64,000 nucleotides of DNA. It comes from an uncultured Acidobacteriota bacterium. Lineage in GTDB: Bacteria; Acidobacteriota; Terriglobia; Terriglobales; Acidobacteriaceae. Below, piece by piece: positions 9,161-44,881 of this stretch. The stretch is taken from the NCBI GenBank assembly GCA_903832055.1, contig CAILAC010000010.1, positions 1 through 64,000 of the forward strand, written 5' to 3'. The position numbers and the translations under genes were made by a program. Each line of letters starts with the position of its first letter. The first letter of the stretch is position 1. Under the pieces are notes generated by a model. The model saw only the letters and a program-made list of their open reading frames with translations. It made no database searches and had not been told where the DNA came from.

Positions 9161-9299
9161 GGGCGATTTCCTCGATATTCAAATACAGTGCCTTGGCAGA
9201 TTGCCCGCACGTGAATCAGCATACAACGGCCGCTCTCGCCGCCTATACTTCCTTAGAGGAAATTGATTCTCTTTGGCAACCGAAGCTGAAAGTAAATCC

Positions 9300-12263
9300 A
9301 TGAGCGCCACCACGCCGTTTCCAATCCTGAGCCAAATTTCGGAACACACGCATCGGCATCCGCATGAGCGCTTTGCAGAGAACGCGGCGGCGGTGCGGGC
9401 TCTTGAAGCACAGCTACGCGCCACGGTCAAAGGCGAAGTGCGCTTTGACGAGAGTTCGCGCGCGCTCTATGCAGCAGACGCCTCAAATTATCGCCAGGTG
9501 CCGATCGGTCTGGTGATTCCTCGCGACATCGACGACGTGGTCGCGACCATCGCCGCCTGCCGCGAACACGGCGCGCCGGTACTCTCGCGTGGCGGCGGCA
9601 CGAGCCTCTCTGGCCAATGCTGCAACGTGGCCGTGATTCTGGATTTCTCGAAATACATGCGCTCGATCATCGAGCTCGACCCCGCGACGCGTCTTGCGCG
9701 AGTGCAGCCGGGAATCGTGCTAGATGCTCTGCGCTTTGAGGCCGAGCGCCACGAGCTCACCTTTGCCCCCGACCCTGCCACGCACAGCCGCTGCACGCTG
9801 GGAGGCATGATTGGGAACAATTCCTGCGGCGTACATGCGCTGATGGGCGGCAAAACGGTCGATAACATCGAGGCACTGGACATTCTGCTCTACGACGGCA
9901 CACGGATGCGCGTCGGGCGTACGACCGAAGAAGAGTTGGAATCGATCATCGCCAGTGGTGGCCGCCGGGGCGAGATTTACGCCGGGCTGCGGCGGCTGCG
10001 CGATACGTATTCTGAACTGGTGCGGCAGCGGTTCCCCGACATTCCCCGGCGCGTCTCCGGCTACAACCTCGACCAACTGCTGCCGGAAAATGGATTCAAC
10101 GTGGCACGGGCGCTCGTCGGCACTGAAGGCACCTGCGTCACGATTCTTGAGGCGCATTGCGAGCTGAAACCCAGCCCCCAGCATCGCCGCCTCGTCGCGC
10201 TCGGCTTTGCCGATGCCTTTATCGCGGCCGACCACGTTCCGGCGGTCCTGCGACATCAACCGATCGGCCTGGAGGGTTTCGACGGCCTGCTCGTAGACTT
10301 CATGCTGCGCAAGAACCTTGTTCCGGACGACGTGCGGCTGCTTCCGGCGGGGCGCGGCTTTCTGCTGTGCGAATTTGGGGCCGATTCTGACGCAGCAGTT
10401 GAGCAGATGGTGGAGGGCCTGCTCGCCGCGACGCCTTCCTTTCCCCAACTCCCCGTCATCGCCCGCTATTCAGCAGAAGAGGCAGCGCGCGTTTGGAAGG
10501 TGCGCGAATCCGCCCTCGGCGCGACGGTCTTTGTGCCCGGTGAAAAAAGCGGCTGGGAAGGCTGGGAAGACTCCGCCGTGCCACCGGAGCACCTGGGTGC
10601 CTACCTGCGCGAACTCTTCACCCTCATCGAGCAATTCGGCTACCGCACCCCGATGTATGGGCATTTCGGCCAGGGCTGCGTACATTTGCGCATCACCTTT
10701 GAGATGAAGACGGCCGAGGGAATTGCGAAATTTGAGCGATTCATCGACCTTGCCGCAGACATCGTCCTGAAATATGGCGGCTCCTTTTCCGGCGAACACG
10801 GCGACGGACAGGCCCGCGCCGCTCTTCTTCCAAAGATGTTTGGCCCTGAGCTGATGGGAGCTTTTGCCGAGTTCAAGGCGCTCTGGGACCCCCTCAACCG
10901 GATGAATCCCGGCAAGCTCATTGACCCGGTCGCAGTCTACGGAGCAGCAGAAAATCTGCGCTTTGGTGCTGGATTTGAACCTCGCCACGAGAAGACCTGG
11001 TTTACCTACCCAAACGATGGCGGCTCCTTCAGCGAGGCCACAGAACGCTGCGTCGGCGTCGGCGCCTGCCGCAAAGTTGACCACGGCACCATGTGCCCCA
11101 GCTACATGGCCACCCGGGAGGAAAAGCACTCAACCCGCGGCCGCGCCCATCTGCTGTGGGAGATGCTTGAGGGCAAAGTACTCCAGGGCGGCTGGCGCAA
11201 CAAACAGGTCAAGGAAGCCCTCGACCTCTGCCTCGCCTGCAAGGCCTGCAAGACCGAGTGCCCGGTGAATGTCGATATTGCGACCTGGAAGTCGGAGTTT
11301 CTTGCCCACCATTATGAGGGGCGTGTGCATCCCTTGCAGCACTATGCCTTTGGATACATGGACCGCTGGGCCAGCATGGCATCTGCGGCTCCGTGGCTGG
11401 CAAATCTGCCGATGAAGCTGCCTGGAGTCAATTCGCTGGTCAAAGCGGCGCTCGGAATTGCGCTGCAGCGCGAACTGCCGCAGTTCGCCGCAAGGAATTT
11501 TCGCGCGAATTATAGCGGCAGTGCTGCCACAGCAAATGCTGTGCTGCTCTGGCCGGATACGTGGAACAACTACTTCCATCCCGAGGCTCTGACGGCCGCC
11601 GCCGCTGTGCTGACACAGACCGGGCAGGCCGTGCAGGTGCCTAAAGAGCACATCTGCTGCGGGCGGCCGCTTTACGACTTCGGCTTTCTCGATGAAGCTC
11701 GCAACTATCTCCTGCGGATTCTGGAGCGTCTGGCCCCCCAAATCGACGCGGGCATCCCCGTAGTCATGCTGGAGCCAAGCTGCGCCAGCGTCTTTCGCGA
11801 TGAGCTCCTGAACTTTTTTCCGAACGACGAGCGGGCCATCCGCCTCGCCGGCCAAACCATGCTTTTCAGCGAAATCGTCGCCAAAAATGCTGCCAACTGG
11901 GCACCCCCCGACCTGGCAGGCAGACGCATCCTGCTCCACGGGCATTGCCACCAGAAGTCGATGTTCACCATGAAAGATGAGTTGACCCTTCTGCGGTCAA
12001 CCGGAGCCGATGTCGAGATGCTCGACTCCGGCTGCTGCGGCATGGCGGGGCCATTTGGCTTTGAAAAGGACAAGTACGAGGTTTCGCAGGCGATTGGCGA
12101 GCGGGTGCTGCTGCCCGCCGTGAGAGCAGCGCAGCCGGACACGATTTTGGTGAGCAATGGATTCAGTTGCCGCGAGCAGATTGCGCAAAACACACCCCGG
12201 CGCGCCGTACATCTCGCCGAAGTGCTGGCCGGTCGGTGCAATTCGAAAGCAGAGGAGCGATGA
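9300..12263 (+). CDS. FAD-linked oxidase with Fe-S and CCG domains (D-lactate/glycolate dehydrogenase-like)
   Basis: A 987-residue fusion. It has an N-terminal PCMH-type FAD-binding domain (SRGGGTSLSGQCC, GGMIGNNSCGVH), an FAD-oxidase C-terminal domain, and a ferredoxin-like section with two cysteine clusters (CVGVGACRK...MCPSY and CLACKACKTECPVNVD). Two cysteine-rich CCG segments follow (HICCGRPLYDFG, DSGCCGMAGPFG). The arrangement matches quinone-linked D-2-hydroxyacid dehydrogenases of the YdiJ/Dld type, which oxidise D-lactate, D-2-hydroxyglutarate or glycolate at the membrane. The ATG at 9300 is preferred; an in-frame TTG at 9273 is possible. It is coupled by a four-base overlap to the lactonase gene, so it may oxidise a 2-hydroxyacid released by the downstream pathway. 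Confidence 0.88.
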   Translation: MSATTPFPILSQISEHTHRHPHERFAENAAAVRALEAQLRATVKGEVRFDESSRALYAADASNYRQVPIGLVIPRDIDDVVATIAACREHGAPVLSRGGGTSLSGQCCNVAVILDFSKYMRSIIELDPATRLARVQPGIVLDALRFEAERHELTFAPDPATHSRCTLGGMIGNNSCGVHALMGGKTVDNIEALDILLYDGTRMRVGRTTEEELESIIASGGRRGEIYAGLRRLRDTYSELVRQRFPDIPRRVSGYNLDQLLPENGFNVARALVGTEGTCVTILEAHCELKPSPQHRRLVALGFADAFIAADHVPAVLRHQPIGLEGFDGLLVDFMLRKNLVPDDVRLLPAGRGFLLCEFGADSDAAVEQMVEGLLAATPSFPQLPVIARYSAEEAARVWKVRESALGATVFVPGEKSGWEGWEDSAVPPEHLGAYLRELFTLIEQFGYRTPMYGHFGQGCVHLRITFEMKTAEGIAKFERFIDLAADIVLKYGGSFSGEHGDGQARAALLPKMFGPELMGAFAEFKALWDPLNRMNPGKLIDPVAVYGAAENLRFGAGFEPRHEKTWFTYPNDGGSFSEATERCVGVGACRKVDHGTMCPSYMATREEKHSTRGRAHLLWEMLEGKVLQGGWRNKQVKEALDLCLACKACKTECPVNVDIATWKSEFLAHHYEGRVHPLQHYAFGYMDRWASMASAAPWLANLPMKLPGVNSLVKAALGIALQRELPQFAARNFRANYSGSAATANAVLLWPDTWNNYFHPEALTAAAAVLTQTGQAVQVPKEHICCGRPLYDFGFLDEARNYLLRILERLAPQIDAGIPVVMLEPSCASVFRDELLNFFPNDERAIRLAGQTMLFSEIVAKNAANWAPPDLAGRRILLHGHCHQKSMFTMKDELTLLRSTGADVEMLDSGCCGMAGPFGFEKDKYEVSQAIGERVLLPAVRAAQPDTILVSNGFSCREQIAQNTPRRAVHLAEVLAGRCNSKAEER

Positions 12264-14421: not shown

Positions 14422-16758
14422 ATGGGTTCATCCTTGCTTCCTCGGAAGTTTCGATCTTCCTGGCTCACATGGGTTTTCCTTGCCGTCTTTGCACCGATTT
14501 TGTTGATTTCGGCCAAAGCTCAGATCTCACCCGGTCCACTTTCGCAGGCTCACCAAAGCTTGAACGGAGCTTCCAACTGCACCAAATGCCACTCTGTCTC
14601 CACCAGTTCTCCCACCTTTCGCTGCCTTGATTGCCACCAGCCGATTGCCGCTGAACTGAATCAGCACAAGGGGCTCCACGCTACGTTTCCACAGGCAGGC
14701 CCCCCTGGCGCGGCATGCGTCAAGTGCCACTCTGACCACAATGGAGCCAATTTCTCTCTGTTGCACTGGGACCCGACCCCAAGAGGCTTTGATCATTCAA
14801 AGACGGGATTCACGCTCGACGGCAAGCACAGCGGCGTCGCCTGCCGGTCTTGTCATGCACCGCAACATATTACGCCGGCAGCAAGGGCTCAACTGCCCCA
14901 GGTAGATCTCGGCAAAACGTGGCTGGGCATGGCAACCAACTGCCTGAGCTGTCATGAAGACAAGCATCAGGGACGCTTTGGCGTGAACTGCGCCCAGTGC
15001 CACTCAACTGCAGGTTGGAAAGACGCCAGAGTGGACGCGCATGGATTTGACCACTCCAAAACGCACTTTGCGCTGACCGGGATGCACCAGAAGGTAGCCT
15101 GCGAAAAATGTCACACTCCCGGATCAGACGGGCAGCCGCGATTCGCTGGCATCCAGTTTGCCACCTGCGCAGTCTGCCACAGTGATCCGCACAAGGGAGC
15201 GTTCAAGCAGGGTTGCGAAAGCTGCCACACTACCCTTACATGGAAAAAATCCTCCTTCGTCTCGACCTTTGACCATTCAAAAACTGCCTACCCACTGGCA
15301 GGTAAGCACCTGGATGTCGCCTGCCTGACCTGCCACAAGGGCGGCGACTTCAAGACGCCTATCCCGCACAATCAATGTGCCGACTGCCACAAGCAGGACC
15401 CGCACAGCGGTCAGTTTGCCAAACGCGCCGATGGCGGCAAGTGCGAGAGCTGCCACACGGTCAGCGGCTTCAAGCCCTCTACCTTTGCCACAGCCGACCA
15501 TGCCCGGACAGGCTTTCCTCTGAACTCACCCCATGCGCTGGTTAAGTGTGCCGACTGCCACACTCCTGCTGGACCGCAGACCCGCTTCAAGATCAAGTTT
15601 GCACTCTGCATCGACTGCCACCAGGACCCGCACAAAGGTCAGTTTGCTGGCGATCCCTGGCAGAACCAATGTCAGAAATGCCACTCTGGCCTCACGTTCA
15701 AGAAACAAAATATGACTCTCCTCGAGCACCAGAAGACACGCTTCCCGCTCACCGGCGGGCACGTTGCCGTGGCCTGCATCGACTGCCATAAGCCTGTGCC
15801 GGGCTCGACTACAGCCGTATTCCACTTTGCCAATCTGACCTGCACCACTTGCCACGAAGACATTCATCATGGCGAATTCGCAGCGCGCATGTCTGTGCTC
15901 TCCAACGCGGGCAAACCGCTCGGTTGCGAAGCCTGCCACTCGAACAAGGACTGGAAAGATATCGCACGCTTTGATCATGCAAGCACACACTTTCCGCTTG
16001 AGGGTTCACATCGAGCTGTGGCTTGCATTGATTGCCACAAACCGCCCAACCTCGAACAAAATCTGATCCATGTTCAGTTTTCACAAGCATCTTCAAAGTG
16101 CGTCGATTGCCATCAAAGCCCGCACGGTGGCCAGTTCAAAGAGCGCGAACTGAATTGCTCTTCCTGCCATAACAGCAACAAGTGGCGGCCGTCACTCTTT
16201 GATCACGAGAAGACATCGTTTTCACTTAAAGGTGGGCATCAGGACGTACGCTGCGCAGCCTGCCACACAAACAAGAAATCGGTTGAAGACACGATGGTGT
16301 TGCTCTACAAGCCCACGCCAAGTGCCTGTGCGGATTGTCATGGCACCAACATACCAGCACCCGGTAAACAATCACTGCTTCGGATTCCAAATCGCAACCC
16401 TGATTGGCAGCAAAAGACAGTTGCATTCCGCGTTGCTTCACCTGCAACCGTCAACCACAATTGCTTCGCTCACCAAACGATTATGCCATCGTCAAAACCC
16501 TCGAAGTTGTTTGTATCTATTTCATTGCCATCAGGAAACACTGCTACTGGAATCGCGGCTTCCTTCGGGAGAGCCGGCTCTAACGAGTCATCGGCAATGC
16601 AGCCTATACGCCCGCTGCGCAAGAATGCCTCCAGCCAGCTACAACGTTCCGCTAAAAGACAACGTGTGCAGAGCACTCGTGAATCTGCAATCAGCAGTTC
16701 ACCTTTCAGCACATTTGACTTTTCTAATACTCCGCCGATAACTACGGTTCAGGGGTAG
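14422..16758 (+). CDS. 23-heme c-type cytochrome
   Basis: An exported 778-residue protein with 23 CxxCH heme-attachment motifs by direct count, the first at about residue 53 and the last near residue 635. A hydrophobic segment at 14-32 is the export signal. Many hemes fall in degenerate modules with the pattern FDH-x-KT-x-F-x-L-x-G-x-H before VAC-x-x-CH, supplying distal histidines. The ATG at 14422 gives a normal signal peptide; in-frame ATGs at 14266 and 14356 are possible and none has a clear ribosome site. The last ~135 residues have no heme motif and look unlike the rest. It is first in a six-gene operon with a 34-heme cytochrome and a barrel, suggesting long-range electron transfer in the periplasm or outside. 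Confidence 0.88.
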   Translation: MGSSLLPRKFRSSWLTWVFLAVFAPILLISAKAQISPGPLSQAHQSLNGASNCTKCHSVSTSSPTFRCLDCHQPIAAELNQHKGLHATFPQAGPPGAACVKCHSDHNGANFSLLHWDPTPRGFDHSKTGFTLDGKHSGVACRSCHAPQHITPAARAQLPQVDLGKTWLGMATNCLSCHEDKHQGRFGVNCAQCHSTAGWKDARVDAHGFDHSKTHFALTGMHQKVACEKCHTPGSDGQPRFAGIQFATCAVCHSDPHKGAFKQGCESCHTTLTWKKSSFVSTFDHSKTAYPLAGKHLDVACLTCHKGGDFKTPIPHNQCADCHKQDPHSGQFAKRADGGKCESCHTVSGFKPSTFATADHARTGFPLNSPHALVKCADCHTPAGPQTRFKIKFALCIDCHQDPHKGQFAGDPWQNQCQKCHSGLTFKKQNMTLLEHQKTRFPLTGGHVAVACIDCHKPVPGSTTAVFHFANLTCTTCHEDIHHGEFAARMSVLSNAGKPLGCEACHSNKDWKDIARFDHASTHFPLEGSHRAVACIDCHKPPNLEQNLIHVQFSQASSKCVDCHQSPHGGQFKERELNCSSCHNSNKWRPSLFDHEKTSFSLKGGHQDVRCAACHTNKKSVEDTMVLLYKPTPSACADCHGTNIPAPGKQSLLRIPNRNPDWQQKTVAFRVASPATVNHNCFAHQTIMPSSKPSKLFVSISLPSGNTATGIAASFGRAGSNESSAMQPIRPLRKNASSQLQRSAKRQRVQSTRESAISSSPFSTFDFSNTPPITTVQG

Positions 16759-16837
16759 CGAATAACTACGGCTTAAAAGAACCGGAAGTGCTTTCAAGGC
16801 CGCCGGTCGCGTGAAGACGCATTGGATGGAGAGGTAT

Positions 16838-19465
16838 ATGGGCCGCTTTCGCAGGTTCATTGTTGGTGGATTTCTGCTACTCACTGTGCTCGCGGTCACG
16901 GCTGCTCTACAGCCTGCGCAGACGTCAGCACAGTCTTCGACGCAGTCCGCTCCACACCAATCAGCCAGTCCCCATGCCAAGGTAACAAATCCGCATGGAA
17001 CACTTGCCATCCCTTGCCAGAACTGCCATACCTATACGAGTTGGAAGCCAATTCGTGCCATCCCTGAATTCAATCACGATCACACGCGCTATCCATTGCG
17101 TGGCATGCATCAGACTGTAAGTTGCGCTCAATGCCACACCAAACTAGTATTCACAAATACGAGCACTCATTGCGCCGATTGTCATGCAGATATTCATCGC
17201 CGCAAGTTTGGATCCAACTGTGAGAGCTGCCATTCAGTCAAGGGCTGGCAAGTCTCGCTCGATGTCATCCGCAACCACCAGAACCGCTTTCCGCTGGTCG
17301 GCGCGCACGCTCTCGTAGACTGCCAAGGTTGCCACAAAGGTGCTGCGACCGGACAATACAAAGGTCTCTCAACCACTTGCTATAGCTGCCATACCGCAGA
17401 CTTCCGCACACCTAACTTTGATCACATCGCGATGGGCTTTCCGACTACCTGCGAGTCGTGCCACACAATGGACAGTTTTCTCGGAGCGAAGTTCGATCAC
17501 TTTAAGTTCACTGGCTTTGCACTCACCGGCATGCATGCCACACTCGATTGTGCGTCATGCCACATCAACAACAAATACAAAGGCACTCCAGCAGACTGCT
17601 ATGCATGCCATAAAGATGCCTTCCAGAAGACGACCAATCCGAGCCACCCACAGCTCGGCCTGCCGCATGATTGTGGTACATGTCACACAACTGTCAACTG
17701 GCTCAATGCCAAGTTTGATCACTCCGCTTACGGGCATTTCCCTCTGACTGGATTCCATGCCACAGTTGCCTGCGCACAGTGCCACATCAACGGCAAATAC
17801 ACTGGCACACCAACCGATTGCTACTCATGCCACAAGGCCAACTTCACCGGAACGACCAAGCCCAACCACATTGCCGCAGGCTTCCCAACTGACTGTTCCT
17901 TCTGCCATACGACCATTGCGTGGATACCCTCGTCATTCAATCATGCAAAAACAGCCTTCCCGCTCACCGGTGCGCATACTAGCGTGCAATGTGCGCAATG
18001 CCACATCAACAACGTGTACAAGGGCACTCCACAGGATTGCTACTCATGTCACAAAGCCAATTTTGCTGGAACAACGAAACCCAACCATGTTCAGGCTGGC
18101 TTCCCAACTGACTGCACATTTTGCCACACCACATCGGCGTGGAGTCCAACTTCTTTCGACCATGCAAAGACAGCCTTCCCCCTTACCGGCGCGCACACTA
18201 CAGTGCAGTGCGCTCAGTGCCATGTAAATAACATTTACAAAGGCACACCGACAGATTGCTACTCATGCCATCTCACCAAGTTCACCGGAGCAGCAAATCC
18301 AAATCACGTGGCTGCCGGCTTCCCAACAACTTGCACACTTTGCCATACCACTGTTGCCTGGGTTCCATCGTCCTTTAACCATGCCATAGGAACCTTTCCA
18401 CTCACCGGTGCGCATCAGACCGTTCTCTGTGCAAAGTGCCACGTGAATGCGAATTACACGTCCCTCCCCACAGATTGTTATGGCTGCCATCAACCAGCTT
18501 TTGTGAGCACAACCAATCCGAGCCATCTTACCCTAGGCCTTCCCCATACCTGCGCCACCTGCCACACCACGGTGGACTGGTTCAATGCATCCTTTGATCA
18601 CGCAGTCTTTGCCCACTATCCGTTGAGCGGAGCACATGCAAAGGTGGCCTGTCTGCAGTGCCACATCAACGGCAAATATGCCGGTACACCTTCAGATTGC
18701 TACTCCTGCCACAAGCAGAACTACACGAGCACAACCAACCCGAATCACGCGAAGGCAGGCTTCCCAACTGACTGCTCCTTCTGTCATTCCACTGCCGCGT
18801 GGAGTCCGTCTTCCTTTGATCACGCGAAGACTGTATTTCCGCTCACTGGTGCACATACATCCGTCGTCTGCGCACAGTGCCACATCAATGGCAACTACAC
18901 GACAGTGCCGACTGATTGCTACGCCTGTCACAAAGACAAATATACGGCAACTTCAAATCCCAATCACATCAGCGCTGGCTTCCCCACTACCTGCGCCATC
19001 TGTCACACAACATCGACTTGGGCAGGTGCCGTGTTTGATCACAACAAGACACCATTTCCTTTGACTGGTGCGCATACCACTGTGCTCTGTGCCAAGTGCC
19101 ACATCAACAACGTATATGTGGGCACGCCAACGGACTGTTATGCCTGTCACAAGATTCAGTACACAACTACAACCAATCCCAATCACATCTCCGCAGGATT
19201 CCCGACCACCTGCGCCGCTTGCCACACGACAGCTACATGGCTGGGCGCAACATTCAACCACACATGGTTCAACACTTCGCATGGCGGTGCCAACGGAGTC
19301 TGCGCCACCTGTCACACAAATTCCTCAAACTACGCTGTCTTTACCTGCACCAATTGCCACGGCAAAAGCAGCACCGATCAAAAGCACAGTGGCGTACAGG
19401 GCTACGTCTACAACAGCGTAAACTGCTACGCTTGCCACAAGAATGCAAGCGGCGGGGGTAACTAG
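16838..19465 (+). CDS. 34-heme c-type cytochrome with tandem three-heme modules
   Basis: An exported 875-residue protein with 34 CxxCH motifs by direct count. After a signal peptide (about 1-30, ending near TSAQS) there is one leading heme, then about ten modules of roughly 73 residues. The last eight are very regular: FPLTGAH...CAQCHIN, then CYSCHK, then FPTDCxFCHTT and a W/FDH linker, giving three hemes per module. A three-heme cap closes the protein. Start at the ATG at 16838, with GGAGAGG just upstream; in-frame starts at 16811 and 16826 exist. The regular modules suggest an elongated heme wire. It is followed directly by an outer-membrane barrel gene whose ATG touches its stop codon. Confidence 0.92.
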   Translation: MGRFRRFIVGGFLLLTVLAVTAALQPAQTSAQSSTQSAPHQSASPHAKVTNPHGTLAIPCQNCHTYTSWKPIRAIPEFNHDHTRYPLRGMHQTVSCAQCHTKLVFTNTSTHCADCHADIHRRKFGSNCESCHSVKGWQVSLDVIRNHQNRFPLVGAHALVDCQGCHKGAATGQYKGLSTTCYSCHTADFRTPNFDHIAMGFPTTCESCHTMDSFLGAKFDHFKFTGFALTGMHATLDCASCHINNKYKGTPADCYACHKDAFQKTTNPSHPQLGLPHDCGTCHTTVNWLNAKFDHSAYGHFPLTGFHATVACAQCHINGKYTGTPTDCYSCHKANFTGTTKPNHIAAGFPTDCSFCHTTIAWIPSSFNHAKTAFPLTGAHTSVQCAQCHINNVYKGTPQDCYSCHKANFAGTTKPNHVQAGFPTDCTFCHTTSAWSPTSFDHAKTAFPLTGAHTTVQCAQCHVNNIYKGTPTDCYSCHLTKFTGAANPNHVAAGFPTTCTLCHTTVAWVPSSFNHAIGTFPLTGAHQTVLCAKCHVNANYTSLPTDCYGCHQPAFVSTTNPSHLTLGLPHTCATCHTTVDWFNASFDHAVFAHYPLSGAHAKVACLQCHINGKYAGTPSDCYSCHKQNYTSTTNPNHAKAGFPTDCSFCHSTAAWSPSSFDHAKTVFPLTGAHTSVVCAQCHINGNYTTVPTDCYACHKDKYTATSNPNHISAGFPTTCAICHTTSTWAGAVFDHNKTPFPLTGAHTTVLCAKCHINNVYVGTPTDCYACHKIQYTTTTNPNHISAGFPTTCAACHTTATWLGATFNHTWFNTSHGGANGVCATCHTNSSNYAVFTCTNCHGKSSTDQKHSGVQGYVYNSVNCYACHKNASGGGN

Positions 19466-21241
19466 ATGAGAGGCTCGCATCTGCCATTCTTTCTTCTTCC
19501 GCTGAGTGCTATATGCATTCCTCTGTTCGCGGCACATGCACAGGAGACACCGGCACCACAGGCTGCGCAAACCTCTCCAGCTATTCAAGTTCGTACCGAG
19601 TTTCACGTTCGCTATGTAACCGGGACATCGGTCTATATCGATGGCGGCAGAGGCGATGGCCTTGCCGAGGGTACAATCCTCGTCCTGAAGCAAACCCAAT
19701 CACAATCAACCCAGCCAGACCAGGACAAAGTGATTGAGCCCGGTGTCGTAGCACGCCTGAAAATCGTCTCAGTTGCATCGACTTCTGCGGTCTGCGAAGT
19801 AGCTGAAACTACGCGCGAGATTGTCGTCGGAGACACGCTCTGGATGCCGCAGAAAGAAGTAGAGAAACTCGTTGAGAGTCACGCACTTGGAAATACGCGG
19901 CAGTATCCAATGATTATCAGCTTCACCGAAGGCGATCCTCTCGATGAGGAAGTGCGCGAAGCGCAACCACATCCTCCGCTGACTGAAATCAATCAGGCGC
20001 GTGGCCGCATCGGCTTTGACTTGAGCACTATCAAAGGCCTCGGACAAAGCAATATGTCTTCAACAGTTGTAGGCATGGTACTGCGCGCTGACATCACTCG
20101 GATCTACGGAACTCACTGGAATCTCAACGGCTATTGGCGCGGGCGCTTGCAGACATCTTCGAGACCTTCACAGCCTTCGCTGCAAGACCTGATGAATCGC
20201 ACTTACCAGATGAGTTTGAGCTACATAAACCCTCAGTCAAACTGGTCCGCCGGCGTAGGTCGCCTATACCTTCCCTGGGCGAGTAGCCTTGAGGCAATTG
20301 ATGGTGGATATGTTGACCGGCACATCTCAACCAACTCGCTCGTCGGGCTGTTTGCTGGATCAACTCCTGATCCGACGGCATGGAACTATAACCCCACACG
20401 CAAAATTGGCGGCATCTTCCTAAATTCTCATGGCGGAAACTACGAAAACCTCTGGTACACCAGCACAGCCGGATTTGGAGTGAGCCTACTCAACTGGAAT
20501 GTCGACCGGCCATTTCTCTTCACAGAAAATGACTTTTCTTATAAGCGCATCTTCTCGCTCTATCACTCGATGCAGATTGATCGTCCGACCGCGAACCCAT
20601 CCATGCCGGCGGTCAGTGTCGGCATTGGTCAGAGCCTGTTGTCATTGCGTGTCCAGGTCCATCCCAGGATGTCAATGGATCTGACCCATACCTACTTCCG
20701 TGATGTTCCAACCTATGATCCAGCGTTGGTCGGAACGGGCCTTCTAGACAAATATTTGTACCAGGGCGTAAATGCCGGCGCCCGCATTTCTTTACCTCTG
20801 CATATTACGCCCTACTTCAGTCTTGGGCGCAGCAGTAATTCATCCGATGCCAAAGGCTCGCTCAACACCCTCCTTGGGATCAGCATGGCCGACATCTGGA
20901 AGACTGGCTTGATGGTGGATGCACGCTACTCCAAATTCAACAGCGCATTTGCAGCTGGCACCTATAGCAACCTTACAATTTCTCGCGATCTGGGTGAGCG
21001 CTTTCGCCTGAATCTGCAAGGTGGAAAACAAATGTTCAATTCACCTTTGTCAAAGAACACTGGCTCCTACTTCATCAACAGCATGTTTGACGCCAATCTT
21101 GGTTCGCGCTACTTCATCGAGAGTGGCTTCACCACCCAGCGAGGCGGCACACAGGAATATAACCAATGGACCACGACTTTTGGATATCGCTTTGATAATC
21201 GTGGTTCTCAAAGGAAGGCTGCGCATGCGCCTCTACCGTAA
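19466..21241 (+). CDS. outer-membrane beta-barrel protein of the multiheme operon
   Basis: A 591-residue exported protein (signal peptide about 1-26). Residues 45-130 form a small soluble domain with the pattern VYIDGGRGDGLAEGTILVL...VVGDTLW, resembling SH3-like C-terminal domains of FlgT-type proteins. From about residue 180 onward the sequence alternates polar and hydrophobic residues in many amphipathic strands, as in a porin. It starts on the base after the 34-heme cytochrome stop. By position it could be the barrel that anchors or passes the cytochromes through the outer membrane; it lacks CxxCH motifs and does not obviously match MtrB. The barrel call comes from pattern, not from a recognised family. 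Confidence 0.7.
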   Translation: MRGSHLPFFLLPLSAICIPLFAAHAQETPAPQAAQTSPAIQVRTEFHVRYVTGTSVYIDGGRGDGLAEGTILVLKQTQSQSTQPDQDKVIEPGVVARLKIVSVASTSAVCEVAETTREIVVGDTLWMPQKEVEKLVESHALGNTRQYPMIISFTEGDPLDEEVREAQPHPPLTEINQARGRIGFDLSTIKGLGQSNMSSTVVGMVLRADITRIYGTHWNLNGYWRGRLQTSSRPSQPSLQDLMNRTYQMSLSYINPQSNWSAGVGRLYLPWASSLEAIDGGYVDRHISTNSLVGLFAGSTPDPTAWNYNPTRKIGGIFLNSHGGNYENLWYTSTAGFGVSLLNWNVDRPFLFTENDFSYKRIFSLYHSMQIDRPTANPSMPAVSVGIGQSLLSLRVQVHPRMSMDLTHTYFRDVPTYDPALVGTGLLDKYLYQGVNAGARISLPLHITPYFSLGRSSNSSDAKGSLNTLLGISMADIWKTGLMVDARYSKFNSAFAAGTYSNLTISRDLGERFRLNLQGGKQMFNSPLSKNTGSYFINSMFDANLGSRYFIESGFTTQRGGTQEYNQWTTTFGYRFDNRGSQRKAAHAPLP

Positions 21242-22115
21242 CTTTGTCAGCTTCATCTCGGCATTCATTTTGCTTGTTATCGGAATAAAGTGTGGTGCAC
21301 AATCTTCACTCGTCAATGAACACAGTGAGCGTGCACAACGTCAGGTTCTTGCATACGTAGCAAAGTTGGCTGACCTGCATTGCGCCGAGTCTGTAGTGCA
21401 GGAGAAGCTAACCAGGAGTGGCCATGTTGAAGCAACAGACCGCAGCAAGTTCGACTATCTGATCATGATGCAGGGCGATGGCAATGGCTTTCAGATGAAT
21501 GAATCGCGCATTGAAAGCACTGCAGCCAAACACAAGCCGCTCCCACTCCTCGTGACAAATGGATTTTCGACCCTGATGCTCATTTTTCATCCCTACTATC
21601 GCGACAGTTTCCGCTTTGAATCAGGAGCGATTCGCGATGTGGATGGCCGTCTGCTATTGCCCCTGCACTTCGCACATCTGTCAGGCACGCGCACTCTGGC
21701 AGCTCTGGCGCTGCGAGGACGTGAGTATGCGCTTGACCTCGAAGGCATTGCCTGGCTAGATCCCTCCACCGGCGATGTTGTGAAAATTGAAGCCAATCTG
21801 ATGCGCGACATGAGTGATGTGGGCCTTCACTCACTGAGCATTCGCGTGGACTACAAGACAGTTGATTTAGGCAAAGAAGCAGGCTCAATGCTACTGCCTT
21901 CAACGGCTGTCATCGATGTTGAAACGCCCCGCCAACACTGGCGCAATACTCATTCGTTCAGCAATTATCGATCCTTCTCTACTGAGGTCGAACAGGACCC
22001 CAATGTAAAGATTCATGCTGCTGTTGAGACATCAGAAAAGGACGCGGCGCCCACGGAGGAAATCACCAATCCATCCAAATTATCCACGCCACCTCAGCCA
22101 AGGGAGAATCCGTAG
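21225..22115 (+). CDS. exported protein of unknown function in the multiheme operon
   Basis: A 296-residue protein that I do not recognise. Residues 1-27 look like a signal peptide. The body is soluble, mixed alpha/beta, without heme motifs, and ends in a Pro/Glu/Thr-rich tail. The ATG at 21225 has AAGGAAGG six bases upstream and overlaps the barrel gene by 17 bases, so the two are translationally coupled. Conserved association with the barrel would suggest a periplasmic assembly or accessory factor; that is inference from position only. Confidence 0.7.
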   Translation: MRLYRNFVSFISAFILLVIGIKCGAQSSLVNEHSERAQRQVLAYVAKLADLHCAESVVQEKLTRSGHVEATDRSKFDYLIMMQGDGNGFQMNESRIESTAAKHKPLPLLVTNGFSTLMLIFHPYYRDSFRFESGAIRDVDGRLLLPLHFAHLSGTRTLAALALRGREYALDLEGIAWLDPSTGDVVKIEANLMRDMSDVGLHSLSIRVDYKTVDLGKEAGSMLLPSTAVIDVETPRQHWRNTHSFSNYRSFSTEVEQDPNVKIHAAVETSEKDAAPTEEITNPSKLSTPPQPRENP

Positions 22116-22117
22116 CC

Positions 22118-23077
22118 ATGTCAACGCTGCAAAGCGCTGTTCCAAACAAGACGATGCCCGGCAAAGCGATGTTCCGCAATGACGCAGAGCGCGGGCATCG
22201 CTTCCGCGTGCGCCTGGCCGCGCTCACCTCATTCTTGTTTCTCACAGGGCTGCTCATTTACGGAGCGAGCTACTATCGTTTGCCGCTTGATGAGCGGCCA
22301 TTCTCTGACAAACATATGCTGCTGCGGCCCAGCGGTACAATTGGCCTCAAGCTAGGCATCCTGGGCACCGCTCTCTTCGTCATCATTTTTCTCTACGCAT
22401 TGCGTAAGGTGATCCCCTGGCTGGGTCGCATCGGTACCGCGCGGCATTGGATGGATTTTCACGTCATCTGCGGTGTATCCGCACCCATTGTTATTGCCCT
22501 CCACGCTTCGTTCAAATTTCAGGGAATCGCCGGCATCGCCTATTGGATTATGGTTGCCGTCGCGCTCAGCGGCATCGTTGGCCGCTATCTCTATTCACAA
22601 ATCCCGCGATCACTTACCGCAGCAGAACTTTCACTCAGCGATCTGCAATCCAACGAAGAAGAACTATCCGCAGCCTTGCTTGAACAATCGGTCTTTTCAG
22701 CGAAGCGACTGGCACGCATTCTCGATACGCCATCAGCTGAGCACATCCGCAACGAATGGGCGCTCGCGGCCATCGTCGAGATGCTCATGCTCGATATGCG
22801 GCGTCCATTTCAGATTGCAGCGCTCCGTCGCTCATCCTCTGACTTTGTGGGCAATCTGCGTTCAATCGGAGGGATTCTGCACTCCGCAAACCCAGAAGTT
22901 GAGCGCATCGTCACGCTCGTACGCCAGAAGGCATCCCTCTCAAAACGTATCATTTTCCTCGACAAGACTCGTCGCGTGTTCAACCTCTGGCATGTCATTC
23001 ATCGTCCTTTCAGCTATGCGTTCGCCGCCCTTGCGATCATGCATATTGCGGTTGTCATGGGCCTGGGGTTTCTCTAA
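22118..23077 (+). CDS. membrane protein, candidate diheme b-type cytochrome
   Basis: A 319-residue inner-membrane protein with hydrophobic helices at about 32-50, 74-98, 113-132, 138-158 and 298-318. Histidines sit in or beside helices at H115, H129, H292/H295 and H309, spacing that would allow two transmembrane b hemes, as in cytochrome b561 or ferric-reductase-like proteins. A soluble helical stretch (about 165-285) lies between helices 4 and 5. It starts three bases after the preceding gene and is followed three bases later by a ferredoxin-flavoprotein gene. A role in moving electrons from that reductase or quinol to the periplasmic cytochromes is inferred; heme binding is not shown. Confidence 0.65.
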   Translation: MSTLQSAVPNKTMPGKAMFRNDAERGHRFRVRLAALTSFLFLTGLLIYGASYYRLPLDERPFSDKHMLLRPSGTIGLKLGILGTALFVIIFLYALRKVIPWLGRIGTARHWMDFHVICGVSAPIVIALHASFKFQGIAGIAYWIMVAVALSGIVGRYLYSQIPRSLTAAELSLSDLQSNEEELSAALLEQSVFSAKRLARILDTPSAEHIRNEWALAAIVEMLMLDMRRPFQIAALRRSSSDFVGNLRSIGGILHSANPEVERIVTLVRQKASLSKRIIFLDKTRRVFNLWHVIHRPFSYAFAALAIMHIAVVMGLGFL

Positions 23078-23080
23078 ACA

Positions 23081-24442
23081 ATGGACACACTATTCACCTG
23101 GCTCATTGCCGCGATCGTTCTCGGCTTCTTTGTGATTCGCTATTGGCGCGCCAACAAGCGCAGTGAGGCGCTTGCTCATGCTGCTGCGGCTCGCGGAGCT
23201 AACTTCTCTGATGGACCAAAGGCACAGCATCCACATATTCATGCCGACTCTTGCATCGGCTGCGGAGCATGTGTAACCGCGTGCCCTGAGGGCGATGTGC
23301 TCGCTCTTGTGGGAGGCAAGGCAGCGATCGTCAATGGCCACAAATGCATTGGCCACGGCCTCTGTGCAGAAGAGTGCCCAGTCGGCGCAATCACCATGGT
23401 CATGGCAAAAGCCAGCGCCAGTGCTGACCTGCCGGCTCTTAGCGAATCGCTCGAAACAACCGTGCCGAATCTCTTCATTGCGGGCGAATTGGGTGGCCTT
23501 GCGCTGATAAAGAACGCTGTCAATCAAGGCGTCTCCTGCGTGAATGAAATCGCAAACCGCCTCGAAGACCTGCGCAGTGGCACACACACAGAAAATGTCT
23601 ACGACATCATCATCGCCGGCGCCGGACCCGCCGGCATCGCTGCTTCCCTGCGCGCTGCCGAGCTAAGCATTTCAACTCTGACGCTGGAGCGCGAAACCGT
23701 TGGAGGCACGGTCTCCAAATACCCAAGGCAAAAGCTCGTCATGACCAGCCCCGTCGAGTTCCCGCTGCACGGCAAGTTTCGCAAGACGCAGCTCAGTAAA
23801 GAAGAGCTGCTCGCATTTTGGGAAGAAGTCATGCGGCGCACTGACCTCAACATTCATACCAACGAAGGCATCGCCTCTGTAACGCGCGAATCAAACGGCA
23901 TCTTCAGTGTCCGCACCAGTCTTGGAGAATACCGCGCTCGCACGATTATCCTGGCGCTTGGGCGAGCCGGCACACCCCGCAAACTCGGCGTCAAAGGCGA
24001 AGAATTGCCCCACGTGCTCTACCGTCTTATCGAGGCTGACCACTACACACACAAAAATATCCTCATTGTCGGTGGAGGTGACAGTGCCGTCGAAGCAGCC
24101 ATGGGCCTTGCGCATCAGCCAGGCAACCGCGTCACCATCTCTTACCGCAGCGCAGCTTTCAGCCGCCTCAAGGACCGCAACGCAAAGCGAATCGAAGAGC
24201 ACATCCGTGCCAACAAGCTCGAAGTAATCTTCAATTCCGTGCCCTCTGAATTTCGCGAAGGCAGCGTCTTGCTCGACGTGGAAGGAGAGACGCGCGAACT
24301 CGCCAATGACGTGGTGTGGATCTTTGCCGGGGGTACTTCACCGACCAACTTCCTCAAAGAGTGCGGCATCGCCCTCGGATCTGTAGAGCTCTCTCAAAGC
24401 GAAAAAGAGCAGTCTCACCCTGCTCTCGCCATACTCACCTGA
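23081..24442 (+). CDS. membrane-anchored ferredoxin / thioredoxin-reductase-like flavoprotein fusion
   Basis: A 453-residue fusion: one N-terminal helix (3-21), a two-cluster ferredoxin domain (about 50-105) and an FAD/NAD(P) oxidoreductase (about 170-440). Cluster 1 has a full CxxCxxCxxxCP set (C58, C61, C64, C68). In the second, CIGHGLCAEECP places histidine 92 where the second cysteine would be. Dinucleotide motifs are AGAGPAGIAA (FAD) and VGGGDSAVEAA (NAD(P)H). The CxxC disulfide of true thioredoxin reductases is absent, as in YpdA-like enzymes. As the last gene of the multiheme operon it is a likely electron entry point from NAD(P)H or ferredoxin into the membrane cytochrome. Confidence 0.85.
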   Translation: MDTLFTWLIAAIVLGFFVIRYWRANKRSEALAHAAAARGANFSDGPKAQHPHIHADSCIGCGACVTACPEGDVLALVGGKAAIVNGHKCIGHGLCAEECPVGAITMVMAKASASADLPALSESLETTVPNLFIAGELGGLALIKNAVNQGVSCVNEIANRLEDLRSGTHTENVYDIIIAGAGPAGIAASLRAAELSISTLTLERETVGGTVSKYPRQKLVMTSPVEFPLHGKFRKTQLSKEELLAFWEEVMRRTDLNIHTNEGIASVTRESNGIFSVRTSLGEYRARTIILALGRAGTPRKLGVKGEELPHVLYRLIEADHYTHKNILIVGGGDSAVEAAMGLAHQPGNRVTISYRSAAFSRLKDRNAKRIEEHIRANKLEVIFNSVPSEFREGSVLLDVEGETRELANDVVWIFAGGTSPTNFLKECGIALGSVELSQSEKEQSHPALAILT

Positions 24443-24454
24443 CCCTTCCTCAGG

Positions 24455-24949
24455 TCAAAGAGTCTTGAGAAAGCGAAGAATCTCCGGGCTGCTCCAGTCC
24501 TGCGCACCAATGAAGCGTCGGCGGATGCGGCCCTCGCGATCAATAATGTACGTCTCCGGCCACTGCTCGGTGCCAAACTTGCTGGCTGCCGTCTGCTGAG
24601 GGTCCCGCACTGTAATCAAGTCCACATGACGCCGCTGCAGAAAGCTCCGATACGCATCCGGGTCTTCATCAATGCTCACCGCCAGCACCGGGTACTCTGG
24701 ATGCTCATGGTGAAATTGCAGCAGCGACGGCAGCTCCAGAATGCAGGGCTCGCACCAGGTTGCCCAGAAGTTGAGCAGTACCACCTGCCCGCGATAGCTG
24801 GCCAGGTGTACCGCGCTCGTACCGTCGGCAACGTTGAAATCGGGTGCCAGTTTACCCGTCTGCGAGGGGTGGCTGCCACGATCGCAGGCGGTCGCAAACA
24901 GCCCCAGCGCCATCGCAACTAAAGCGAGTTTATGCCGCATACTGTTCAT
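24455..24949 (-). CDS. TlpA-like thioredoxin-fold lipoprotein
   Basis: A 164-residue thioredoxin-fold protein of the TlpA/ResA/AhpC-TSA type. It has a lipoprotein signal with lipobox ATAC, then the redox site WCEPC in NFWATWCEPC, and a cis-proline region (WPETYIID). It acts in the periplasm, reducing disulfides; members of this family keep apocytochrome CxxCH cysteines reduced for heme ligation. It converges on the multiheme operon, twelve bases from its last stop, which suits such a job, though it is not co-transcribed. The start is 24949 (GGGAAAG upstream) or the ATG at 24940. Confidence 0.85.
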   Translation of the reverse strand: MNSMRHKLALVAMALGLFATACDRGSHPSQTGKLAPDFNVADGTSAVHLASYRGQVVLLNFWATWCEPCILELPSLLQFHHEHPEYPVLAVSIDEDPDAYRSFLQRRHVDLITVRDPQQTAASKFGTEQWPETYIIDREGRIRRRFIGAQDWSSPEILRFLKTL

Positions 24950-24987
24950 CTTTCCCACATACCTATAATACGGAGCAGAGGCCAAGC

Positions 24988-26133
24988 ATGCCACCTTCTG
25001 TCAATCAGATGCCTGAGTCAGATCCAGATTCATCACCAGAGACCCTCAAACATACTTCATTAGACGCCCCAGCCGCGCCAACGCCTGGCGTTAGAGTCGA
25101 AGATCTGGAACTGACCGTCATCGTGCCCGCGCGCAACGAAGAAAGCTGCCTCGGGCTCTGCCTGCAATCCCTCGTCGCGCAGTCAGACGAATTCTTCCTT
25201 CTCGGCCGCGATTGGGAGCTGATCGTCGTCGATGATGAATCGACCGACGGCACCCGCGCCATTGCCGAGAGCTTCTCTGGCGTTACCGTGATGGCCCCCG
25301 ATCCGCTCGAAAAAGGCTGGACCGGCAAAGCCAACGCATGCTGGTCAGCAGCCCAACGCGCCCGAGGCCGCTGGCTCCTCTTTACTGACGCCGACACCGT
25401 CCACGAAGCAGGCAACCTGCGCCGGGCCATCCATGAGGCAGAGAAATATCGCGTCGGCGTCCTCTCCTATTCCCCAAAGCAGCTCGTCACCGGGCTTTGG
25501 CAGCGGTCGCTCATGCCGCTCGTCTTCAGCGAACTCGCCCTCGCCTATCCAACCGAAAAAGTCTCCAATCCTGAGCTCCGCATTGCCGCCGCCAATGGGC
25601 AATTTCTACTTGTCAGCCAAGACGCTTATCGAGAGCTGGGCGGCCACGCCTCGGTCAAAGGCGAAATTCTCGAAGACGTGGAACTTGCATTTCTCGCCAA
25701 GAAGCGCAAAGTCGGCCTGCGCTTTCGCTACGCCGCCGATGCTCTCTCAACCCGCATGTACCGGTCGACCACGGCCATGATTGAGGGCTGGACCAAGAAC
25801 CTCGCGCTGCTCTTTGGCAACTGTCTGATTCTTGCCGCGTGGCGAGTCCTCGACATCTTCCTGCTCGTCGGTTTGCCGCTGCTCGCCTGGCAATATTGGA
25901 GCTACGGCGTTCGCCAGGTCCCCTGGTTCTCTGCCGGAGGCCTGCTCACCCTGGTTTGGCTGCGCAACCTTTGGCGCTTTTACGCTCGCGTTGCCAAGTC
26001 CCATTTCCCCGCGCTCGATTGCATCCTCTCCCCACTCGGCCTGCCGCTGTTTGCAGTTTTGCTCTATCGCAGTTGGTTTCAAAACAACGTCTTGCACCGG
26101 GTTTCGTGGAGAGGGCGCACCTATCCGACTTGA
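24988..26133 (+). CDS. family 2 glycosyltransferase with C-terminal membrane helices
   Basis: A 381-residue GT-A fold glycosyltransferase. The nucleotide-sugar site is visible as VIVPARNEE and VVDDESTDGT, the metal-binding DxD as FTDADT, and the acceptor-side motif as GEILEDVELA. Two or three hydrophobic helices follow residue 280, so it is membrane-bound. The layout recalls GT2 enzymes of hopanoid (HpnB) and carotenoid (CrtQ) pathways, but no neighbour confirms that. Start at the ATG at 24988; divergent from the TlpA-like gene with only 38 bases between them. Confidence 0.85.
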   Translation: MPPSVNQMPESDPDSSPETLKHTSLDAPAAPTPGVRVEDLELTVIVPARNEESCLGLCLQSLVAQSDEFFLLGRDWELIVVDDESTDGTRAIAESFSGVTVMAPDPLEKGWTGKANACWSAAQRARGRWLLFTDADTVHEAGNLRRAIHEAEKYRVGVLSYSPKQLVTGLWQRSLMPLVFSELALAYPTEKVSNPELRIAAANGQFLLVSQDAYRELGGHASVKGEILEDVELAFLAKKRKVGLRFRYAADALSTRMYRSTTAMIEGWTKNLALLFGNCLILAAWRVLDIFLLVGLPLLAWQYWSYGVRQVPWFSAGGLLTLVWLRNLWRFYARVAKSHFPALDCILSPLGLPLFAVLLYRSWFQNNVLHRVSWRGRTYPT

Positions 26134-40727: not shown

Positions 40728-42158
40728 CTATTGAATGCCCAAGTCTGCCATCAGTTTTGGATTCGCTTCATCCACTGCGAGCAGGTTATGACATTTGGCG
40801 CAATCGTTGGAGATGCTGGCGCCAGCCTTGGTGTTGTGGCTGCCATCGTGGCAACGGAAGCATCCGGGATAGTCATTATGGCCAATGTTATTCGGATGAG
40901 TGCCCCAGGACACCTTCATAAAAGGAAAGATATTGCGGCTGTAGATGGTGACGAGTGTCTTGGCCGCCTGGTCAATCTGCGCCTTCTGCGCGCTGTAGAT
41001 CGCTGGATATTTCGCCTGATAAAAGCTGTTCAAGCCAGCGGTGATCTTTGTCTCTGCATCTTCTTCGGATGCATACTCAGCCTTGAGCAGAGCTAACCCC
41101 TGCTTGTGCATGAACGGCAGACCAGCGCTGGGAGTTCCAGAAGCCATGTCCTTGTTCAATGCAGCTTCCGGCGTCACAAATGAGTGGGCTGCACGGTTGT
41201 GGCAATCGATGCAGTCCATCTCCCGCTTGGTGCCGGTGACCGGTCCCTTTGCATCCGCCGAAACAAACTCGGTCACCGAACCGTCATCATTGGTCTTGCT
41301 CACCGAAGTGATGGTCTGGCGGGTTGAGTCCGTAGCAATGTACTCGATGTGCCCCATGTGTGCGCCATGAATGCCGCTAAGCTTGCCAAACTGATCTTTC
41401 CCCCCTACGTGCACCATCACTACGGTGTGCGTGAGAGAGTTTTTCTCGTCATCGGCGTAACTACTCTTGACGACTAGTTTGTCCCCGAAGGAATTCTCTG
41501 GATTGTGGCATTTGACACAGGTCGTCCTCGCTGGAGGAACCTTGTCGCCGGCCATGATCGGCGTTGGGTAGTGGTTAACTAATACCATTGCCAATTGCTT
41601 CGTGCCATTCACTTTTGCGTTCACATAGCCTGGAATTCCAGGAGCGATATGACACTCAGTGCACGCCAGCCCTGCATGAGAGGAAACATGATAGGCGCTC
41701 CACTCGGGCGCCATGACGTGGCAAGCCTGGCCGCAAAAGTTGGGAGTATCCATATAAGCCACCCCGCGATAGCTTGCCGTGCCAAAGATAATGAAGTTAA
41801 TAAATGTGGCAACGACCACGAAGTCAATTCCGCGTCGGAAAACAGGATCGGCAAAATCAATGTTCGGAATGACAGTTGGGATATGCCCCTCAACCATCAA
41901 TCGATGCCTCCGTTGCCAGACTCCGATCGGAATCATGATCAATCCGAGGACAAACAATGCCGGCAGGCAAAGATCAAAAATGATGCCGAGATAAGGATTC
42001 GTTGAGCCGCCATGACCGAAAAACTCGACGACCCAGAAGCCTACCAGAGTCATCGCAGAAGCGCTGGTAATTGCGCCGCCGATAATGCTGATCGGATTGT
42101 TACCGTAATAGAGCGCTGGCCTTAGCCATGTTCTGTTTAGCCTGTCGAACATACTCAT
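40728..42158 (-). CDS. NapC/NrfH-type membrane multiheme cytochrome with extended C-terminus
   Basis: A 476-residue quinol-dehydrogenase-type cytochrome. Three hydrophobic helices near 22-48, 58-80 and 112-130 precede the heme domain. There are six heme motifs: one CxxxCH (FCGQACHVM) and five CxxCH (ACTECH, TCVKCH, DCIDCH, GCFRCH, DCAKCH). NapC/NrfH/CymA proteins carry electrons from the quinol pool to periplasmic partners; the extra N-terminal helices and long C-terminal half make this one unusual. AGAGG precedes the ATG at 42158. As the last gene of the minus-strand cluster it would be the inner-membrane entry point for the decaheme-barrel conduit. Confidence 0.85.
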   Translation of the reverse strand: MSMFDRLNRTWLRPALYYGNNPISIIGGAITSASAMTLVGFWVVEFFGHGGSTNPYLGIIFDLCLPALFVLGLIMIPIGVWQRRHRLMVEGHIPTVIPNIDFADPVFRRGIDFVVVATFINFIIFGTASYRGVAYMDTPNFCGQACHVMAPEWSAYHVSSHAGLACTECHIAPGIPGYVNAKVNGTKQLAMVLVNHYPTPIMAGDKVPPARTTCVKCHNPENSFGDKLVVKSSYADDEKNSLTHTVVMVHVGGKDQFGKLSGIHGAHMGHIEYIATDSTRQTITSVSKTNDDGSVTEFVSADAKGPVTGTKREMDCIDCHNRAAHSFVTPEAALNKDMASGTPSAGLPFMHKQGLALLKAEYASEEDAETKITAGLNSFYQAKYPAIYSAQKAQIDQAAKTLVTIYSRNIFPFMKVSWGTHPNNIGHNDYPGCFRCHDGSHNTKAGASISNDCAKCHNLLAVDEANPKLMADLGIQ

Positions 42159-42298
42159 GTCTGCCTCTTTCCCACTTCATTCAATACGCAAGTTCACTGG
42201 AATTAACGCTGCCAGAGTGGGCGGACGGAGTGCGTTTTTTATTTCAAAACCGTCTTTGAATTTCAGTCCGCACCACCTGGGTGGCAATAAATCATCAT

Positions 42299-42628: not shown

Positions 42629-42679
42629 TCGATCTCCTTTCTATTGCTAAAAACCTTTTCATACCTCGCGATTCGAAGG

Positions 42680-44869: not shown

Positions 44870-44881
44870 GCGGGCCATCCC

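Follow-up and report, generated by a model that had tools for sequence, protein, structure and literature searches.

Putative porin-cytochrome conduits of the PCC3 family have been described from Alpha-, Beta- and Gammaproteobacteria and comprise a porin, an extracellular and a periplasmic cytochrome (medians of 34 and 21 hemes, respectively, at 22–39 residues per heme), and an inner-membrane protein (IMP) of approximately 300 residues with an SGXXG motif in helix 4 and, in helices 3 and 5, two WX3HX13H motifs (He et al. 2017, PMC5566968). In that work, the IMP was likened to a quinone-active cytochrome b, a link to the quinone pool was proposed, and the conduit, first found in Fe(II) oxidisers, was modelled as inward. 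In Gallionellaceae, the periplasmic partner has 21, 24, or 27 hemes and the outer one 10–35, both in long linear models (PMC10734462). Here, we analysed a stretch of 64,000 nucleotides (the window) from an uncultured Acidobacteriota bacterium (assembly GCA_903832055.1, contig CAILAC010000010.1), in which a six-gene operon encodes the predicted parts of a PCC3-type conduit together with a putative NAD(P)H input module. The window forms the beginning of a 1.06 Mb contig in a genome of 4.57 Mb in 18 contigs.

Other described clusters resemble the operon in part. The S13 porin cluster of Burkholderiales likewise has a porin beside a 24-heme and a 49-heme cytochrome, of which the larger varies by insertion and deletion of CxxCH domains; it differs in that its porin groups with OmbB, and no flavoprotein is mentioned in the cited portion (PMC7399161). 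In PCC4 and other IMP clusters, an IMP with the same motif pair stands beside Fe-S or redox proteins and multiheme cytochromes (PMC5566968), a likeness seen in two types of locus in our set (L078 and L087), but the cytochromes of those clusters are small (4, 5, and 10 hemes), and an outer multiheme protein is lacking. From Acidobacteriota, a Holophaga conduit of the MtrB and ExtB/E type (PMC7399161), hints of decahemes in peat members (PMC3669403), ImcH homologs (PMC6295460), and multiheme proteins without function in metagenome-assembled genomes (MAGs) from sludge (PMC8100337) have been reported. The open-access papers searched yielded nothing on the present operon among acidobacterial multiheme conduits, and nothing that links PCC3 with this phylum.

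Gene content, conservation, and likeness to PCC3

The operon consists of six same-strand genes with one overlap of 17 nt between genes 3 and 4 (Table 1). Judged from sequence, it is a PCC3-type conduit, because its gene content, apart from genes 4 and 6, and the motifs of gene 5 agree with the account of He et al. 2017; proteobacterial PCC3 was compared by description. An earlier note on this DNA had named exported 23-heme and 34-heme cytochromes, an outer-membrane barrel with an N-domain, an exported fourth protein, a membrane protein with helix-placed histidines, and a membrane-anchored ferredoxin-flavoprotein fusion, all of which were borne out. Its view of the system as unfamiliar was not, given the PCC3-like content and the IMP signature of gene 5. 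An envelope-spanning conduit fed by a cytoplasmic flavoprotein/ferredoxin is the best reading, and two outcomes that the note had named as refuting its proposal did not come about: the genes do co-occur in relatives, and the barrel is predicted.

As in PCC3, a barrel gene accompanies two very large, low-complexity, repeat-bearing cytochromes of which the outer one is variable, and the 23 and 34 CxxCH motifs in the window compare with the published medians of 21 and 34 hemes. The mean spacing in relatives (29.8 residues per heme for gene 1 and 27.1 for gene 2) lies in the published range. Unlike PCC3, the window adds an NAD(P)H flavo-Fe-S gene and a LolA-like gene, gene 1 mostly has 23 hemes versus 21, 24, or 27 in Gallionellaceae, the barrel is predicted with approximately 20–22 strands versus up to 42 there, and the hosts are Acidobacteriota and Bacteroidota. 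By its domains, the anchored ferredoxin-flavoprotein of gene 6 is new with respect to PCC3, and so is its replacement in other acidobacterial lineages by an unrelated protein of the FAD/NAD/2Fe-2S type.

Conservation was evaluated in two overlapping locus sets that share at least four loci (L090, L098, L126, L168). Set A comprised gene 5 relatives in 396 genomes of the phylum, with 40 loci used for partner counts after exclusion of weak gene 5 matches or fragments (L077–L088); set B comprised 80 loci with gene 5 relatives, the best of 391 confirmed, all within Acidobacteriota and three of them from Ca. Sulfotelmatobacter. Loci with flanks shorter than 9 kb (upstream) or 2 kb (downstream) were removed; of the 44 that remained, 36 contained relatives of all six genes, which excludes a chance grouping. 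Two of the 36 (L108, L111) have their gene 6 relative close by but on the opposite strand. The other eight lacked gene 4 (L123, L126, L136), gene 1 (L130, L137), gene 2 (L140), gene 6 (L165), or genes 2 and 3 (L094); the gap in L094 is real, whereas some of the others may be missed open reading frames (ORFs). Around gene 5 relatives in set A, the order 1-2-3-4-5-6 recurred and was rearranged to 5-(6)-1-2 farther off. Two carriers, Occallatibacter savannae AB23 and strain AB60, bear no MAG label.

Across the 396 genomes, gene 5 was matched in 83 at 1e-5 and in 41, the own genome included, at 1e-30 or better; the barrel gene was matched in 36. Pairwise distances of genes 1, 3, 4, 5, and 6 correlated over 38 sequences (Mantel r 0.42–0.91, p 0.001 each). 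The weakest correlations were those of gene 6 (0.42–0.60), fitting the existence of two gene 6 versions with 39–44% and 53–84% identity to the window protein. A tblastn search of 72,556 plasmid records gave gene 5 relatives in two and a gene 1 relative in one. The plasmid of Emticicia oligotrophica (Bacteroidota) carries in a row the c-heme assembly protein ResB-CcsA, an IMP, gene 6, a 23-heme and a 40-heme cytochrome, and a barrel-like protein, with profile matches to genes 1, 3, 5, and 6 and none to gene 4. On the plasmid of Methylophaga pinxianii (L170, 11971–15325), an FNR-type flavo-2Fe-2S protein is directly followed by an IMP-like protein (weak match, E 3e-4 over 75 residues) and then by a cytochrome c. 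In the surroundings of the latter, ccm genes occur nearby and mercury resistance genes upstream.

Table 1. Positions of the operon genes and of further features in the window.
Feature	Position	Strand	Description
Gene 1	14422–16758	+	Exported c-type cytochrome with 23 hemes; all 23 CxxCH lie within residues 53–640
Gene 1, end	16342–16758	+	Residues past the last heme site, mostly unconserved
Gene 2	16811–19465	+	Exported 34-heme c-type cytochrome; three-heme repeats of ~73 residues, Gly-rich C-terminus
Gene 3	19466–21241	+	Predicted outer-membrane beta-barrel, ~20–22 strands (residues ~170–579); N-domain ~45–126
Gene 4	21225–22115	+	Exported; predicted LolA/LolB-like fold
Gene 5	22118–23077	+	Inner-membrane protein of ~five helices; WX3HX13H twice, SGXXG at 151
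Gene 6	23081–24442	+	N-terminal membrane anchor, two Fe-S motifs, YpdA/thioredoxin-reductase-like FAD/NAD(P) domain
Gene 6, second Fe-S motif	23345–23377	+	Residues 89–99, Cys3His
Flanking gene	9273–12263		Scanned; not an iron transporter
Flanking gene	24455–24994	−	TlpA/ResA-like thioredoxin lipoprotein; not an iron transporter
Flanking gene	24844–26133		Scanned; not an iron transporter
Second conduit cluster	40728–45826	−	DmsE/MtrA-type decaheme, barrel-like protein, 5-heme membrane protein

Predicted parts of the conduit

Hydropathy analysis revealed signal-like hydrophobic stretches at the N-termini of genes 1–4 and a single N-terminal hydrophobic stretch in gene 6. Heme sites were counted in the complete cytochrome copies of set B (45 for gene 1 and 49 for gene 2, with contig-cut or split ORFs dropped). 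Exactly 23 CxxCH motifs were present in 42 of the 45 gene 1 relatives, the exceptions being L092 (21, with unknown residues), L140 (12), and L168 (19); in farther acidobacterial loci, gene 1 has 20, 23, or 24 (19 in L043). The gene 2 relatives ranged from 19 to 61 hemes, and their number followed 3n+1 in 39 of 49 copies (binomial p 4e-11 if loci are taken as independent, though they share ancestry). Thus, the gene 1 wire is of near-fixed length, whereas the gene 2 wire grows by three-heme units. At the upper end, the relative in L150 has 1527 residues and 61 CxxCH. Gene 2 consists largely of such repeats, and each contains three CxxCH and three further recurrent histidines, which would suffice for bis-His ligation of every heme. 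By analogy, the near-constant gene 1 is likely the periplasmic wire, and the variable gene 2, somewhat richer in Thr/Ser/Ala/Gly (0.371 versus 0.326), is likely the outer, extensible one.

Gene 1 and gene 2 both match PF14522 (c7/c3 group; 99 and 139 bits, respectively). Polymeric c7 cytochromes of Geobacter (e.g., GSU1996) are built from tandem three-heme c7-like repeats. Gene 2 shares this architecture but differs in that its 34 hemes are encoded in a conduit operon and that it scores 29.6 bits with TIGR04257 (cut-off 40). A barrel combined with a multiheme c wire across the outer membrane is also the plan of MtrCAB/DmsE-type conduits; assignments of gene 1 to the MtrA/DmsE decahemes (TIGR03508, 57.2 bits versus a cut-off of 192.2) and of gene 2 to OmcA/MtrC (TIGR03507, 19 bits versus 209.3) were rejected. 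A phmmer search of both against solved structures gave no match at 0.01, which does not prove that relatives are absent.

Gene 1 may begin at either 14266 or 14422, and 143 residues separate its last CxxCH from the stop. In 51 of 53 measured relatives, this distance is 5–65 residues; the tail is therefore probably a run-through in which a spacer, with a median of 304 bases in relatives, is read as coding. Long tails were also found in the close relative L089 (114 residues) and in the contig-cut L093 (127 residues).

For gene 3, an AlphaFold model (pLDDT 62.7) predicted a strand-rich domain at residues 45–126, followed by the barrel strands after residue 170. In a VIA comparison, the model matched OpdL with Z 16.8 (root-mean-square deviation [rmsd] 4.9, 267 aligned residues), with many outer-membrane barrels within 1 Z, so the barrel proposed in the earlier note held up at the moderate confidence of the model. 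Foldseek returned many barrels at low TM scores, and the MtrB type was not among the 50 matches listed. Seven genomes of one genus (G106, G133, G142, G150, G166, G174, G236) matched only the N-domain (residues ~18–128), in ORFs of ~400–460 residues; this domain is hence found on other proteins, too. The gene 4 model (pLDDT 78.3) resembled, over most of the protein, the DUF1329 protein 4z48_A (Z 12.5, rmsd 3.7, 191 aligned residues) and the lipoprotein-sorting domain of 3bk5 (Z 12.4), so its predicted likeness to LolA/LolB is one of fold only, and a role as chaperone or assembly factor is possible. Its C53 was invariant in 11 aligned sequences. Neither gene 3 nor gene 4 matched a Pfam family at 0.1.

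Gene 5 carries the complete IMP signature, with W111/H115/H129 and W291/H295/H309 in the two WX3HX13H motifs, the SGXXG motif, and a hydropathy profile compatible with five helices. All four histidines were invariant in 26 aligned sequences; in set B, both WX3HX13H motifs were present in 79 of 80 relatives (one in L168), and SGXXG followed the first in all 80. Thus conserved in its paired histidines, gene 5 is predicted to be a di-heme cytochrome b, the IMP of PCC3. No Pfam family scored above cut-off for gene 5, and a profile search against solved structures gave at best three weak matches (E 0.33–0.96), which leaves room for undetected relatives.

The input slot and the direction of electron flow

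In gene 6, two Fer4 domains and a Pyr_redox (Pyr_redox_3) domain were identified. Its Fe-S motifs, CxxCxxCxxxCP (Cys4) and CxxHxxCxxxCP (Cys3His), were invariant in 73 of 73 aligned rows; the histidine of the unusual second site was thus present in every row. The flavin domain lacks CxxC in the window, and only one of the 73 rows has it, so gene 6 is not a usual thioredoxin reductase. Models for thioredoxin reductase (TIGR01292, 77.1 bits versus a cut-off of 343.45) and for YpdA (TIGR04018, 158.4 bits versus 339.9) were rejected as assignments. The role predicted for gene 6 is that of an NAD(P)H input module.

The slot beside gene 5 was occupied by a gene 6-type protein in 21 of the 40 loci of set A, by an FNR-type protein in 11, by both in none, and by neither in eight (Fisher p 3e-5 for mutual exclusion, uncorrected for ancestry). 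Two of the FNR-type proteins (L049, L057) were scanned with Pfam and contained FAD_binding_6, NAD_binding_1, and Fer2; the other nine are BLAST relatives of these two. The FNR-type protein on the Methylophaga plasmid has the same trio of domains. PCC3 in its published description and model, which are not a stated definition, has four genes, no dedicated flavoprotein, and a quinone link; the present loci depart from it, as 32 of 40 have a module by gene 5. Because unrelated pyridine-nucleotide flavo-Fe-S proteins fill one and the same slot, we place NAD(P)H rather than quinol at the inner end. A further arrangement was observed in L078 (7547–14703), with a fusion of thioredoxin reductase-like, cNMP-binding, and Fer4 domains, an IMP, a ten-heme protein with an FHA domain, and an HbpS-like protein in a row, and similarly in L080, L082, and L083 (domains scanned in L078); this makes a further IMP-based cluster, which may be signal-gated.

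The reading we favour, with a probability of about 0.6, is a trans-envelope electron conduit of the PCC3 type that has a cytoplasmic input module of its own. NAD(P)H would reduce the FAD of gene 6, from which electrons would pass via its two Fe-S sites to the two b hemes of gene 5 and on through the inner membrane to gene 1, the periplasmic wire of 23 hemes. At the gene 3 barrel, they would cross the outer membrane to the longer, repeat-built gene 2, whose exposed hemes could serve acceptors that are solid or large, for instance Fe(III) oxides or humic matter. Gene 4 would probably help in assembling the outer parts. Outward flow is proposed for energetic reasons, since an electron leaving the negative cytoplasm would run downhill in charge. 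A conduit of this kind would spend rather than build membrane potential, which would suit a redox valve or overflow respiration and counts against electron uptake to NAD(P)+.

Several observations speak against this assignment. Outward flow from NAD(P)H at the expense of the membrane potential would be odd for a main respiratory chain, and no expression, heme, or electrochemical reports on the operon were found. No substrate follows from known PCC3 data. In Sideroxydans lithotrophicus ES-1, PCC3 was downregulated on Fe(II) (PMC8788666), and the published proteome columns shown give a value of 0 for its outer cytochrome, Slit_1448 (PMC12016527). In strain CL21, the copy 2 IMP was up in iron-oxidising cells, and both PCC3 copies were expressed above the mean (PMC12442390). 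Strain AB60 (L094, 6599–12295) has genes 1, 4, 5, and 6 with no room for genes 2 and 3, and L131 and L157 show genes 1, 5, and 6 only; the outer parts can be lost or located elsewhere at these loci. Two genomes (G122, G258) with a strong barrel match do not belong to the 83 in which gene 5 was matched, the barrel gene is missing from at least 20 genomes of the same family, and the gene 3 model itself is of moderate confidence. The eight loci in which no NAD(P)H module was recognised beside gene 5 also weigh here, as their donor could be quinol; in L059, one of the eight, a gene 6 relative is present on another part of the short contig, and further contigs are short as well.

These eight loci, together with the likeness of the IMP to quinone-active cytochrome b (PMC5566968), are what a quinone-linked conduit as proposed by He et al. 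can draw on, in which gene 5 would exchange electrons with menaquinol/quinone and gene 6 would be accessory or regulatory. We regard this as unlikely, though worth keeping in view, because 32 of 40 loci have one of two unrelated kinds of flavo-Fe-S protein, and never both, next to gene 5; the FNR-type and IMP-like pair on the Methylophaga plasmid points the same way, with the caveat of its weak IMP match. If electrons flowed inward instead, from Fe(II) or humic matter towards NAD(P)+, ferredoxin, or oxidases, the history of PCC3 in Fe(II) oxidisers and the expression in CL21 would be accounted for, and multiheme conduits can be bidirectional (PMC10734462, for Mto/Mtr). Reduction of NAD(P)+ from outside would, however, be uphill in redox terms and have the membrane potential against it, and the downregulation of PCC3 in ES-1 on Fe(II) is at odds with it, making this direction quite improbable.

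Ferric reductases and NADPH oxidases hold two b hemes by two HX13H pairs and receive electrons from NAD(P)H through a flavin on their cytoplasmic side. The present system differs from these in its separate Fe-S flavoprotein of another family and its long c-heme wires outside. A transenvelope ferric reductase for iron acquisition, or an electron store serving as redox sink without respiration, would be consistent with the similar flavin input, with the HX13H pairs, which are shared with both enzyme groups (PMC5566968), and with a weak match of gene 5 to the ferric reductase transmembrane domain (Ferric_reduct, PF01794), rejected as an assignment at 17.6 bits versus a gathering score of 28. An outer path of 57 hemes would be very costly for iron uptake, and no iron transporters were detected in the three flanking genes scanned (a part of all neighbours), so we think such a device a poor candidate. 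That the six genes serve a periplasmic or soluble complex (such as an Hmc-type or octaheme reductase chain) unconnected to the cell surface appears highly improbable. The match of gene 2 to the HmcA model (NF045713, 74.8 bits) and the three loci without genes 2 and 3 would fit, but this score, like that of gene 1 (22.7 bits), is far under the cut-off of 400 and the assignment was rejected, no catalytic-subunit family was found among the six genes, and the barrel gene is tightly linked.

Neighbouring features and biological meaning

The window contains a second, classical-looking cluster that encodes a DmsE/MtrA-type decaheme (TIGR03508, 265.1 bits versus the cut-off of 192.2), a 732-residue barrel-like protein (weak match to GSU2204), and a NapC/NrfH-like 5-heme membrane protein; two separate electron-conduit clusters are therefore present. 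The thioredoxin lipoprotein gene next to the operon is convergent with gene 6, and its product could serve c-heme assembly. Elsewhere in the same genome, further c7-type cytochromes and, at three places, a cytochrome c assembly domain were found; a search of this genome for the cytochrome c554 family had no bearing on the operon.

For the group as a whole, we tentatively suggest, as an idea with somewhat less than even prospects, that its PCC3-type conduits are quinone-independent wires from NAD(P)H to the outside, a counterpart of NADPH oxidase that spans the envelope. A swappable cytoplasmic flavo-Fe-S module would feed a conserved two-heme b subunit, followed by approximately 40–85 c hemes of adjustable outer length, and the whole may give soil Acidobacteriota a redox valve towards humic matter or iron oxides at low oxygen. 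For PCC3, known from its sequences since 2017, the swapped NAD(P)H modules would offer a concrete hypothesis on the inner end; the fixed 23-heme and variable 3n+1 wires would likewise yield a rule for the geometry. Acidobacteriota are dominant in many soils, and their physiology is little understood (PMC3669403); with the conserved operon present in Occallatibacter savannae AB23 (L100), the question of how acidobacteria might use iron oxides and humic matter becomes testable.

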